Assembly: GCA_025057905.1 (NCBI GenBank)
Contig: JANWUX010000001.1
Location: 84,155 to 148,154, forward strand
Origin: Patescibacteria group bacterium
GTDB taxonomy: Bacteria > Patescibacteriota > Microgenomatia > UBA1406 > GWC2-37-13
Length of the DNA stretch: 64,000 nucleotides
Direction of reading: 5' to 3'
In this document: positions 5,035 to 57,162 of the stretch, in pieces
Layout of the letters: every line of letters begins with the position of its first letter
How positions within the stretch are numbered: the first letter of the stretch is position 1
The notes under the pieces: generated by a model
Database searches by the model: none
What the model was told of the DNA's origin: nothing
The model's input: only the letters and a program-made list of their open reading frames with translations
Translations under genes and position numbers: made by a program

Positions 5035-6825
5035 ATGTGCGGAATCTTTGCCGTTGTTAATGATAAAAACGAAAACGCTCCCCAGACGGTTTTAGATGGG
5101 TTAAAAAAGCTTGAGTATCGCGGCTATGATTCTTGGGGGATTGCCGTAAGAAAACTTAAGACACCAATCATCGAGGTAGAAAAACACATCGGAAAAATCG
5201 GTGAAGCCAAAACCTCCCTCCCACCTTCAAGGGTTGGCCTTGGTCACACCCGCTGGGCCACCCATGGCGGTGTTTTTGATAAAAACGCCCACCCTCACCT
5301 TGATTCCAAAAAACAAATTGCTGTTGTTCACAACGGAATTATTGAAAATTATCTTGAGATCAAAGAAGAATTGATAAGAAAAAATCACCGTTTCTTGTCA
5401 GAAACCGACACCGAAGTTGTTGCTCACATGATCGAAGAAACACTCAAGGAAAAAAAAGATTACTCAATTGGTGATTTTGTTGCTCAAGTATTTGCTGCCT
5501 TCAAGAGATTGACCGGTTCAAACGCCATTGGCGTTCTTGATTCCAAAACTGAGACTATTGTCGCCTGTCGAAATGGCTCTCCTCTTGTTGTTGGCGTCGA
5601 TGAGAGAAACCATCAGCTTTTTTTATCAAGTGACATTCCAGCTCTTCTTAAGCACACAAAAAAAGTCTATTTTCTCAACGACAACGAAGCTGCCGTCCTG
5701 AACAAAAACTTATTTCAAGTTTATGATCTTAAGAAGGAAAAACCAAAAAAAATCATCCTAGAAACGGTCAATCTCAAAATCAGCGATGCCGAAAAAGAAG
5801 GTTACCCTCATTTTCTTTTAAAAGAAATTGAAGAGCAAAAGAGAACGATATTAAAAACAATCGAAAAAAATCAAGATCGAATAAGAGAGGCAGCCAAGTT
5901 TGTTAAGTCAAGAAAAATCATCTTCACCGGCTGCGGCACCGCCTATCACTGTGCGCTCTTGGGTAAGTATTTCTTTGCCAAATCAGGTTTAGCAGCAGAT
6001 GCCATCCAAGCCAATGAATTTTCTGCCTTCAGGTACCTGATTGACGATAAAACTACCGTTATGGCCATCTCTCAATCGGGAGAAACAGCTGACACCCTTT
6101 TGGCCGTTAAATCAGCTAAAAAAAACAAAGCCAAAGTTTTAGCGGTTATCAATAGCCGTGGCTCCACTCTTGAACGATTATCAGATTTTTTTATTCCAAT
6201 CCAAACCGGACCGGAGATTGCTGTTGTCTCAACGAAAGCTTTCACTAGCCAACTTGCGGTTCTTTACCTTCTGGCTAAAATTCTGGTTAACAAAGAAAAA
6301 GTGGCCCTGATGAAGATTCGCCTTTTGGCAAGAAAACTTAGCCACTGGCTTGATCGAGGGTTGAAAGATCAACTTATCAATCTAGCAAAGAAGCTTTTAA
6401 AGGAGAAACACCTCTACATCATCGGAAAAGAGCTCAACTATCCGGCAGCCCTTGAATTTGCTTTGAAGGTAAAGGAGACTGCCTACACCCATGCCGAAGC
6501 ATTTGCTTCCGGCGAGCTCAAGCACGGAGTCATTGCCTTAATAGAGAAGGGTATCCCTTGCTTTGTCCTAATTTCAAAAGATGAATATGAGAATGATCTT
6601 ATCTCGGCGGCCACAGAGATCAAAGCTAGAAATGGAACCATCTTTGGTGTCTCACCAGCAGATGCCCCCGTCTTTGACTACCACATCCCAACTCCCGATG
6701 TTGATGAGTTAACAATCATTCCAAATATCATTGTTGGCCAGCTACTGGCTTATTATCTCGGTGTTGGCAAAGGAGCTGATCCTGATAAACCAAGAAACCT
6801 AGCCAAAAGCGTCACGGTAAAATAA
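5035..6825 (+). CDS. glmS: Glutamine-fructose-6-phosphate aminotransferase (isomerizing)
   Basis: GlmS makes glucosamine-6-phosphate from fructose-6-phosphate and glutamine, the entry to UDP-GlcNAc and peptidoglycan. The 596-residue length is normal. The protein starts MCGIFAVV, so Cys2 becomes the N-terminal nucleophile of the class II amidotransferase domain (about 1-215), with YRGYDSWGIAV, HTRWATHG and HNGIIENY. Two SIS sugar-isomerase domains follow, with TGCGTAYH and AISQSGETADT in the first and KVKETAYTHAEAF, ASGELKHG and the C-terminal DKPRNLAKSVTVK in the second. The start is fixed by the catalytic cysteine. No glmS ribozyme can fit in the 7-nt gap upstream. Confidence 0.98.
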   Translation: MCGIFAVVNDKNENAPQTVLDGLKKLEYRGYDSWGIAVRKLKTPIIEVEKHIGKIGEAKTSLPPSRVGLGHTRWATHGGVFDKNAHPHLDSKKQIAVVHNGIIENYLEIKEELIRKNHRFLSETDTEVVAHMIEETLKEKKDYSIGDFVAQVFAAFKRLTGSNAIGVLDSKTETIVACRNGSPLVVGVDERNHQLFLSSDIPALLKHTKKVYFLNDNEAAVLNKNLFQVYDLKKEKPKKIILETVNLKISDAEKEGYPHFLLKEIEEQKRTILKTIEKNQDRIREAAKFVKSRKIIFTGCGTAYHCALLGKYFFAKSGLAADAIQANEFSAFRYLIDDKTTVMAISQSGETADTLLAVKSAKKNKAKVLAVINSRGSTLERLSDFFIPIQTGPEIAVVSTKAFTSQLAVLYLLAKILVNKEKVALMKIRLLARKLSHWLDRGLKDQLINLAKKLLKEKHLYIIGKELNYPAALEFALKVKETAYTHAEAFASGELKHGVIALIEKGIPCFVLISKDEYENDLISAATEIKARNGTIFGVSPADAPVFDYHIPTPDVDELTIIPNIIVGQLLAYYLGVGKGADPDKPRNLAKSVTVK

Positions 6826-53790: not shown

Positions 53791-54546
53791 CTAGGTTAAA
53801 ACCAAGACTTTTTTTTCGGTAACAGCAATTGTGTGCTCAAAGCAAGCAGACAAACTCTTGTCAGCGGTTACAATTGACCATGGATTACCATCTTCATACC
53901 TTATTTCCTCTGTTCCCATAGAGTAAATAATCTCAATCGCTAAAGTTAAACCAGGCTTGATGATTAAAGTTTTCTCTACCGGCCTATCAAGATAATTAAA
54001 AACGAAGGGCTCCATGTGAAGTTTTTTACCAATCCCATGACCAGTAAGTTCTTTAATGATGTAAAAGCCTGCTTTGGTAATTTCTTTTTCGATTAGAGCC
54101 GAGACTTTTCCCAAGCGCTCACCTGGTTTTATTGTCATTATCGCTTTCTTGAGAGTTCTTCTCCCAACTTCAAGAAAATGGTTAATCTTTCGGTCGCAGA
54201 TGCTACCGACGACAATTGTCGTCGCAAAGTCAGTATGATAGCCTTCAAAGTACATTCCGATATCGATGGTCAACAAATCGCCTGCTTTAAGAACTCTTTT
54301 TGACGGTGGAGTATGAACGACTTGTTCATTAACTGGTAAGCAAGTTGACCAATGATAGTTCTGAACTCTCTTAAAGGATGATTCGCCGCCGACCTCTTTA
54401 ATTAATTGCTCAGCTTGTCTGTCAATTTCCTCAGTAGTTATTCCCTCTCTTATTTCCTTAGTCAACTTGCTAACTACCTTCCTTAGTCTTTTTCCTCCTT
54501 CAATCATGATCCCAATCTCTTCTTCGGTCTTTAGATCAATCATCAA
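53791..54546 (-). CDS. map: Methionine aminopeptidase, type I
   Basis: The 251-residue metalloenzyme removes initiator Met. The metal ligands are in place: Asp in LLTIDIGMYFEGYHTDFATT (two Asp), His in LTGHGIGKKLH, Glu in LAIEIIY and Glu in CFEHTIAVTE. The substrate His and NEQVVHTPPS resemble the type I pattern. There is no N-terminal zinc extension. It overlaps the adenylate kinase fusion by 4 nt, in the usual secY-adk-map order. Confidence 0.96.
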   Translation of the reverse strand: MMIDLKTEEEIGIMIEGGKRLRKVVSKLTKEIREGITTEEIDRQAEQLIKEVGGESSFKRVQNYHWSTCLPVNEQVVHTPPSKRVLKAGDLLTIDIGMYFEGYHTDFATTIVVGSICDRKINHFLEVGRRTLKKAIMTIKPGERLGKVSALIEKEITKAGFYIIKELTGHGIGKKLHMEPFVFNYLDRPVEKTLIIKPGLTLAIEIIYSMGTEEIRYEDGNPWSIVTADKSLSACFEHTIAVTEKKVLVLT

Positions 54547-55673
54547 TCAGTGTAATATATCGCTCGATAGACTTCTTCTAATTTGTCATGAAAGTCTTCA
54601 ATTGAAAAGTTGTTTTTCACTAATAAATCAGCGTAAGCGACTGTTGGTGCCATATTTATACCAATCAGTTCGTCAAGATCTCTTTTTTCTCCATACAGAT
54701 TGTTTCTCTCTTTCCTTTGGGCCAATCTTTTTTGTCTTAGCTCTTTGTCAGCGTAGATTGCCAGAATGTATAGTTTAACATCGCTAAACTTCTCTCTTAG
54801 ATAAAGATACTCCTCCCAAGATCGAAGACCATCAATAACCACAATCATACTCTCCTTAAAGAGATTACGGATTTTTTCTTCGTTTAAAATTGCCATAGCT
54901 GCCATTCCATATTTTTCCCTTAGCTCCGTCCTTACCTTCTTGTGAACATCCCTAGTGTGAGGCAAGTTGTTTCTGCTGATGTAATCATTAATTATCTTTC
55001 CAAAAGAGATAACCGGTAAGCCCTTATTTTTGAAAAAATTTGCCGCATCCGTTTTACCTGCTCCTGGCAGTCCAACTATAGCGATTATTTTTTTGGTTTT
55101 CATTCTCCAATCTTTTACCTTGTTTTTTACCAAATGCTTACCAAGATGCTTCAAAATTTGCTGATTTACCGCCTCAATCGACTGAGTGCCATCTATCCTT
55201 AATAATTTATTTTGCTTTTGATAATAGTCTAAAACTGGTAGAGTGAATTCCTTAAATTGTTCAATTCTCTTCTTAATTGCCGTCACCGTCTCATCATCTC
55301 TTCCTTCGTTATTCCTGTAGACTAATCTGTAAATTGCTTCCTTATCTGGAACATCCAAATAGATAACTTTGTCAACATTGTTGATGAATCTCTTCGCCTG
55401 ATAGACAGTTCTTGGAAAACCATCGAGAATGTAGCCATTGCGATACTCTGGTCTTTTTATGTAGTCATTAACAATCTCGATAGTCTTGTCATCAGGAACA
55501 AGCAAGCCACTGTTGATGATGACTTTGATGTATTGACCAAGCTTAGTTTTTTCTTTTGCCAACTGCCTAAAAATATGGCCAGTCGAAAGATAGGGAAGAT
55601 TTAACTGCTTTGAGAGGAGATTGCCTTGCGTCGATTTTCCTGAACCCTGGATACCAATTAGAACCAACCTCAT
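54543..55673 (-). CDS. adk: Adenylate kinase fused to a UPF0200-type P-loop kinase
   Basis: Residues 1-180 are adenylate kinase: P-loop GIQGSGKST at 7-15, STGHIFRQLA, GYILDGFPRT (R88), and a short LID without zinc cysteines (R120, R125, R136). It converts AMP and ATP to two ADP. Residues 191-376 are a second P-loop kinase: IVGLPGAGKTDAANFF at 199 on, RTELREKYGMAAMAIL, VVIDGLRSWEEY and GINMAPTVAYADLLVKN, a pattern of the UPF0200/dephospho-CoA-kinase-like family known mainly from archaea. An ATG codes residue 191 and could start the second domain alone. It overlaps map by 4 nt. Confidence 0.9.
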   Translation of the reverse strand: MRLVLIGIQGSGKSTQGNLLSKQLNLPYLSTGHIFRQLAKEKTKLGQYIKVIINSGLLVPDDKTIEIVNDYIKRPEYRNGYILDGFPRTVYQAKRFINNVDKVIYLDVPDKEAIYRLVYRNNEGRDDETVTAIKKRIEQFKEFTLPVLDYYQKQNKLLRIDGTQSIEAVNQQILKHLGKHLVKNKVKDWRMKTKKIIAIVGLPGAGKTDAANFFKNKGLPVISFGKIINDYISRNNLPHTRDVHKKVRTELREKYGMAAMAILNEEKIRNLFKESMIVVIDGLRSWEEYLYLREKFSDVKLYILAIYADKELRQKRLAQRKERNNLYGEKRDLDELIGINMAPTVAYADLLVKNNFSIEDFHDKLEEVYRAIYYTD

Positions 55674-55872: not shown

Positions 55873-57162
55873 TTATCTTAAAAACTTTTCGTAATTTTTC
55901 ATCGCCAAGTGGGCTTCGATTAACTTAAAAGTTTCTAAAACCACTGACACAACAATTAGAATCCCCGTCCCACCGATAACTAAATCCTCAATCCCCGTGA
56001 TCCTTGACACGACAACAGGCAAAATGGCAATCACTCCCAGAAAAAGAGCTCCAAATGTCGTTAATCTCAGAACGATTTTCTGGAGGTAGTTCTTTGTCGC
56101 TAAGCCAGGTCTAATGCCGGGGATGAAACCACCATGTTTTTGAATCTCTTCACTGATTTTTTGGGGATTGAAGATTATCACTGTGTAAAAATAAGTAAAG
56201 CCAACGACAAGAAAAAAATAAATCAGATTATACAAAAGACCTGTAGGAGAAAATAGATTGAGAAAAAAGTTACCGACGTTGACTAAAAATTGATTCTTGA
56301 CATTAGCCAAGAAATTAGCAACAATCTGAGGAAGTAAAACGAAGTAAATAGCAAAGATTATTGGGATGACACCAGCCTGATTGAGTCTTAAAGGAAGATA
56401 ATTAGTCATAGGCTGGTAGAGACGGTTTCCTCGAATAATTTTGGCATAGAAGACCGGAATTTTTCGCACTGACTCGTTAATGAAGACAACACCGGCGATG
56501 ACGACTACCGAAAGAACAAAGAAAATGCTTAAGTTAACAATGATCTCCTGAGTTAGAATCGAAAGAGTTTGAGATGCGAGAACTGGCAGTCGACCAACAA
56601 TTCCGGCAAAGATTAAGAGAGAAATACCATTGCCAATTCCATACTCAGAGATCAACTCTCCAAACCATACCAAAATAAAAGTCCCAGCAGTTATCGTCAT
56701 CACAAAAGAAAGAAACTCAAGAAAATTAAGGTTAGTAACGATCTTCTGATTTCTCAGGAGTAAATACATTCCAATTGATTGAACAATGGTTAGAGGAAGG
56801 GTCAAAGCTCGGGTGTACTGATTTATCTTATATCGACCATATTCTCCCTCCTTTGACAATTGTTCTAGTTTGGGAAATAGAATTGTCATCAACTGAAGAG
56901 CAATCGAGGCACTGATGTAAGGTCCAAGGCCAAGGGCCATAATCGAAAAATTGATCAGCGTCCCTCCAGAAAATATATCGAGAATAGCAAAGAACTGATT
57001 ACCGGCAAAAAAAGATTTTAACTTGTCAAGATCAATTACCGAAACTGGCACAAAACTAAATACTCTAAAAATAAAAAAAACAAACAGAGTAAAAAGTATC
57101 CTCGATCTGAGATTTTTATCCGAGAAAATCAACTTAAGTTTTTGACTGATGTTTTTTTTCAT
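55873..57162 (-). CDS. secY: Protein translocase subunit SecY
   Basis: The 429-residue channel protein has ten membrane helices. The plug region [28 protein letters not shown] and the cytoplasmic loop with [18 protein letters not shown] that docks SecA are clear. It works with SecA (7081-9732). Its first 29 nt overlap the end of the shortened rplO. bL33 follows. Confidence 0.97.

Follow-up and report, generated by a model that had tools for sequence, protein, structure and literature searches.

An adenylate kinase fused to a UPF0200-related P-loop kinase in Roizmanbacteria and a possible substitute for CMP kinase

Introduction

In a survey of Parcubacteria, Nelson and Stegen found it a puzzle that cmk, gmk, and tmk are scarce although adk is conserved, and they guessed that the specificity of Adk may be relaxed (PMC4508563). 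A second line of work concerns a superfamily of P-loop kinases to which the archaeal UPF0200 protein SSO1041 belongs. The structure 3lw7 of SSO1041 was deposited with AMP as its named ligand, not CMP, and we found no function for this protein in the searchable literature. Shimosaka et al. purified TK1334 and TK2192 of T. kodakarensis, two homologues of dephospho-CoA kinase assigned to arCOG01045, and observed no such activity (PMC6650551).

Here, we analyze a gene that joins an adenylate kinase to a relative of SSO1041. It lies in a window of 64,000 nucleotides from a Roizmanbacteria-type genome (Patescibacteria; a lineage with tiny genomes) whose named relatives are Ca. Roizmanbacteria. We refer to the second kinase domain as kinI; judging from homology, kinI and SSO1041 probably both fall into arCOG01045. 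We did not find a paper describing the fusion or assigning a function to kinI in the searchable literature, which covered few subscription papers.

Results

Architecture of the fused gene

The original prediction of an adenylate kinase fused to a complete P-loop kinase related to UPF0200 was borne out, including its coordinates; the gene lies on the minus strand (Table 1). The TGA stop codon of the fusion overlaps the ATG of map (TGATG). The N-terminal half matches Pfam ADK over residues 5–155 (1.4e-38; 132.8 bits against a cut-off of 26.8) and PDB entry 8pvw (1.2e-31), and its catalytic columns K13, R36, D84, R88, R120, R125, and R136 are invariant among 21 aligned homologues. This half is a full member of the short-lid adenylate kinases and is predicted to phosphorylate AMP. 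The linker is predicted to form a short beta hairpin, and the P-loop of the second half is complete, as had been proposed. A separate product starting at the internal ATG at residue 191 had also been suggested, but this ATG is present in the source sequence only, with Met at this position in none of 20 aligned homologues, and the sole purine-rich stretch preceding it (GGAGA) directly abuts it.

Table 1. Position of the fusion, its parts, and its neighbors in the window
Feature	Position	Strand	Remarks
Fused Adk::kinI ORF	54543..55673	-	376 aa, ATG start
Adenylate kinase domain, residues 1-178	55140..55673	-	Short-lid type; Pfam ADK, PDB 8pvw
Linker, residues 179-193	55095..55139	-	L181, N184, W189 nearly invariant
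Second kinase domain (kinI), residues 194-375	54549..55094	-	AAA_18, SSO1041, profile, AF2, Foldseek
kinI P-loop GLPGAGKT, residues 201-208	55050..55073	-	G201, G204, G206, K207 invariant 21/21
DGLRSWEE motif, residues 281-288	54810..54833	-	G282, S285, W286, E288 invariant
Arg-rich LID-like segment, residues 313-335	54669..54737	-	R313, R316, R320, R323, R331, D332, E335
Internal ATG, residue 191	55101..55103	-	Formerly proposed second start; not conserved
secY, upstream neighbor	55873..57162	-	
map (methionine aminopeptidase), downstream neighbor	53791..54543	-	Start overlaps fusion stop

The second domain is a relative of SSO1041

kinI matches AAA_18 over residues 197–327 and SSO1041 with an E-value of 9e-15 from the single sequence and 5.5e-38 with a profile of 37 sequences. 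When its AlphaFold2 model (pLDDT 93) was compared with known structures by Foldseek, SSO1041 (3lw7) was the top match (9e-12, TM 0.79), followed by adenylate and UMP-CMP kinases and then by dephospho-CoA kinases, and the viral structures matched included deoxynucleoside monophosphate kinases. At the profile level, the whole domain (residues 1–184) matches the phage deoxynucleoside monophosphate kinases of phrog_139 (3.7e-11), and there are weak matches to the Zeta toxin, adenylylsulfate kinase, and CoaE models. No match to Cmk (PF02224) was listed for the second domain, the only one being sub-threshold and located in the Adk half.

In a tree of these domains, which we read for topology only because the ADK profile also matches kinase domains in the set, three groups were evident, i.e. 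kinI, the SSO1041 group, and a second paralogue that we refer to as kinII. kinI forms its own clade (SH-aLRT 100), sister to the SSO1041/UPF0200 clade, while four archaeal rows join SSO1041 (88% SH-aLRT) to the exclusion of kinI. The label UPF0200-type thus holds for the superfamily and not for the narrow SSO1041 clade. Nor could the description of the family as mainly archaeal be upheld, as relatives of kinI are found in many Patescibacteria, Chloroflexota, Bacillota, and Cyanobacteria in addition to DPANN archaea. Within the kinI clade, the fused proteins carry a His-containing motif in place of an N-E-R motif that is conserved in unfused kinI. By analogy with other NMP kinases, the exchanged region should lie near the NMP site and, because the motif is replaced, the specificity of the fused domain may differ from that of unfused kinI.

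The fusion is old and conserved in the order

A search in other genomes, as originally recommended, identified the same single-frame fusion in 43 of the 48 genomes of the order, a count that includes two fusions that are incomplete, either close to a contig end or within the match itself. Because of this conservation, the ORF is no chance read-through, and we conclude that the fusion is real and old. The remaining genomes each differ in their own way: in G011, both the fusion and map are frameshifted, so that a sequencing error is probably responsible; in G028, the fusion is cut by a contig end; in G039, Adk and kinI are split into two adjacent, overlapping genes; in G046 (L039:4643-5638), the fusion is kept with a degenerate second half in which the P-loop Lys is changed to Val and the RD motif is gone; and in its sister G044, Adk stands alone and kinI is lost. 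G046 and G044 gave no match for tmk, cmk, or gmk, and in genus g25, in which kinI is degenerate or lost, tmk was also not found. All fused domains fall into one clade of the domain tree (SH-aLRT 99), which also includes the unfused copy of G039 and, from G032, the second of two tandem copies; this topology is consistent with a single fusion event. Both halves are under purifying selection, with a dN/dS of 0.04–0.07 for the second half where it could be computed, synonymous sites being mostly saturated.

kinI and cmk exchange in the secY-map slot

kinI is located between adk and map, where relatives carry cmk. The fusion in the secY-map position had been called unusual; for adk this position is the usual one, and it is the extra kinase in the slot that is unusual. 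Unfused, freestanding kinI is common, and the order secY-adk-kinI-map occurs in Gottesmanbacteria, Levybacteria, and others, while close relatives have secY-adk-cmk-map. In the outgroup families, adk is followed by cmk, by kinI, by kinII and cmk, by kinII and a second Adk, by a second Adk and cmk, or by nothing. The exchange is also seen within a single genus of Gottesmanbacteria, g80, in which G094, G109, G154, G226, and G252 have adk-kinI-map and G129 and G174 have adk-cmk-map. In the secY tree, the cmk genome G174 has a kinI genome, G154, as its sister, and the other cmk genome, G129, clusters with two kinI genomes, G094 and G109. That an apparently active nucleotide-type kinase occupies an operon slot held by cmk in relatives suggests that kinI stands in for an enzyme these bacteria lack, a role that has gone unrecognised.

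Two further proteins deserve mention here. In some Microgenomates, the secY-map slot holds a second, divergent paralogue of Adk (L165:4826-5395, L162:3227-3787, L163:3475-4029, L225:2816-3427) that partly matches the UMP-CMP kinase family model and is possibly another substitute for cmk. In addition, all seven sampled g80 genomes, in both slot states, encode a divergent cytidylate-kinase-like protein of about 266–300 aa with an altered P-loop, DGSTTAGKR (e.g. L230:1747-2604, L231:1850-2650); its gene adjoins genes for an MFS transporter and a Nudix-like protein, and it might have some activity.

kinI and canonical cmk are mutually exclusive

Among 233 genomes of the class, most of them drafts, kinI is present in 56 and canonical cmk in 43, and no genome has both. 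The overlap expected at random is 10.3 (Fisher 1.8e-6), and that expected when cmk is shuffled within families is 3.9 (permutation p=0.00075). For these counts, kinI was scored at an A2 match of about 1e-28 or better and canonical cmk at about 1e-29 or better, cut-offs that were set at score gaps after seeing the match lists and that leave out the divergent Cmk-like protein of g80. Among the kinI genomes examined for the slot, which were all except G264, five carry kinI outside the secY-map slot (G131, G253, G255, G215, and G167), and dropping these five left the exclusion unchanged. In a pairs test on the secY tree, the five independent pairs on starred branches were all consistent or neutral, with none in the same direction and a mean of 2.8 in opposite directions; the test is too small for significance alone (median p 0.25). 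As would be expected of a functional equivalent, kinI replaces cmk in the slot as well as in distribution.

Canonical cmk is absent from all 48 genomes of the order and was not found in 190 of the 233 genomes of the class. It is important to consider that 134 of the 233 have neither gene; therefore, lack of cmk alone does not demand a replacement, and the bacteria could make do with NTP import, an Adk of relaxed specificity, or a paralogue of Adk. gmk was not found in 198 of the 233 genomes and is lacking in almost every genome of the order; no clear substitute for it was found among the 233. kinI and gmk showed no exclusion, with 6 co-occurrences and 5.4 expected within families, and for this reason CMP fits better than GMP as the substrate of kinI. 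Similarly, the coexistence of tmk with kinI argues against dTMP.

kinII showed no exclusion with cmk in the within-class tests, and it occurs together with kinI in 9 genomes versus 12.3 expected within families (p 0.009). We considered kinII as a replacement for gmk, as the two appeared exclusive by eye in family f18, but we rejected this idea because they occur together in 5 genomes of the class versus 7.7 expected (p 0.17). The kinII gene of the source genome (L054:4817-5410; about 47813-48388 of contig C3) adjoins tmk and two different tandem nucleoside diphosphate kinase genes (L054:5385-5981 and 5986-6570), which are kept in L049-L052 and L190. The best NCBIfam match of this kinII, at 2.2e-20 and far below the cut-off, is to the N-terminal part of an anti-phage dCTP deaminase.

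kinI is linked to nucleotide genes elsewhere

Beyond the class, Parcubacteria-type genomes have kinI-adk-tmk (L103), kinI-adk-tmk::dUTPase (L116), kinI-kinII-tmk (L096), and kinI-tmk::dUTPase (L111), and in an archaeon kinI adjoins adk (L089). These are separate placements of kinI in gene sets for nucleotide, and partly pyrimidine, metabolism. That kinI recurs beside adk, tmk, dUTPase, and kinII and is exchanged with cmk points to NMP phosphorylation. The tmk::dUTPase fusions are themselves found in Parcubacteria- and Falkowbacteria-type genomes (L111, L116, L128), with Pfam confirmation for L111 and L116. They lie downstream of kinI itself or of an adk that adjoins it, a place taken by plain tmk in L103.

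Discussion

Our working hypothesis, which we consider slightly better than an even bet, is that the fusion is a bifunctional NMP kinase composed of Adk and kinI, in which kinI phosphorylates NMPs, with CMP as the most likely substrate, and displaced cmk before it was fused to Adk. What we show is the fusion with its conservation, the intact kinase motifs, the predicted fold, the slot exchange, and the exclusion; the activity of kinI is inferred, as is its substrate, for which we rely on the facts that kinI excludes cmk but not gmk and that it coexists with tmk. The N-terminal half would convert AMP and ATP to two ADP, while the C-terminal half would phosphorylate CMP, and perhaps also UMP or dCMP, with the gamma phosphate of ATP, using the P-loop, the DGLRSWEE motif, and the Arg-rich lid. 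kinI would have taken the place of canonical cmk between adk and map in the ribosomal operon, with the fusion to Adk arising later in the Roizmanbacteria lineage. We speculate that the fusion ensures equal dosage and allows Adk to locally recycle the ADP released by kinI.

Other substrates have to be weighed against CMP. That kinI is a GMP, or broad purine NMP, kinase standing in for the missing guanylate kinase would account for the scarcity of gmk in the order and the class and would agree with the purine in the SSO1041 structure and with the situation in archaea, where superfamily relatives are near universal and Guanylate_kin was found in none of four control genomes; yet kinI does not track gmk, which co-occurs with it as often as expected and was not found in g80 in either slot state, and it is with cmk, not gmk, that the slot is exchanged. 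We therefore regard a GMP kinase as unlikely. To a similar degree, we doubt that the slot is incidental and that kinI acts on something other than a ribonucleoside monophosphate, such as a nucleoside, another small molecule, an RNA end, or deoxy-NMPs only: the functional diversity of the superfamily, reflected in the weak matches of kinI, and the lack of a published function for SSO1041 would leave room for such a substrate, but the recurrent neighbors of kinI and its exchange with cmk argue against it.

The original prediction envisaged a role in nucleotide or CoA supply, and it is the nucleotide role that is most likely. A dephospho-CoA kinase replacing coaE was conceivable given the remote homology of kinI to CoaE and given that, as originally asked, no CoaE over cut-off is present in the source genome. 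However, kinI itself scores below the cut-offs of both PF01121 (23.6 versus 27 bits, Pfam) and TIGR00152 (37 versus 65.55 bits, NCBIfam); CoaE passed its cut-off in only 1 of 57 genomes (0 of 48 in the order and 1 of 9 other genomes of the class), regardless of kinI; the archaeal homologues TK1334 and TK2192 were negative (PMC6650551); and the recurrent neighbors of kinI are nucleotide kinases, with no pointers to CoA seen in its neighborhoods. We therefore reject a CoA role, which we hold to be very improbable. The least credible reading, and only just so, is that kinI serves Adk in structure or regulation and has no catalysis of its own; an Adk extension lacking kinase activity had originally been named as what would overturn the prediction, and our data do not bear it out. 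The broken P-loop in G046 and the loss of kinI from its sister would be compatible with it, but the P-loop Lys is invariant and the Arg and Asp residues checked are invariant or nearly so in all 21 aligned fusions, the P-loop and the Arg-rich positions are under purifying selection, and kinI is common as a freestanding protein.

A nucleotide kinase acting on CMP would be a concrete alternative, as far as CMP is concerned, to the relaxed Adk invoked for the missing kinases of these bacteria (PMC4508563), and it provides a functional lead for the UPF0200-type superfamily, two archaeal members of which were negative as dephospho-CoA kinases. There is a fair chance that the kinI proteins make up a CMP kinase family of a new kind. 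The wider proposal, to which we give a little less than even weight, is that kinI represents an overlooked family of CMP (pyrimidine) kinases, which repeatedly displaced cmk in candidate-phyla bacteria, that the SSO1041/UPF0200 proteins phosphorylate NMPs as well and possibly include the GMP kinase missing from archaea, and that the fusion joins both activities in one polypeptide. If kinI does act on CMP, metabolic models in which these bacteria cannot make CDP would be wrong, and CoaE-like annotations should be dropped.

Compared with described systems, the N-terminal half resembles short-lid Adk in full and it is the extra kinase domain that sets the fusion apart. SSO1041/UPF0200 (PDB 3lw7, 3h0k; arCOG01045-type) is the closest to kinI in length, motifs, sequence, and fold, but kinI is a separate, mostly bacterial and DPANN clade that is here fused to Adk. 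With CoaE, kinI shares the P-loop kinase superfamily and a weak N-terminal similarity, but neither scores over the cut-offs nor links to CoA genes. The phrog_139 kinases and the N-terminal part of the anti-phage dCTP deaminase (NF041025) have profile similarity over the kinI domain but belong to a phage or defence context, with other lengths and partners. With CMP kinase (Cmk, PF02224), finally, kinI shares the adk-map slot, a mutually exclusive distribution, and, as we propose, the reaction, while belonging to a different P-loop family.
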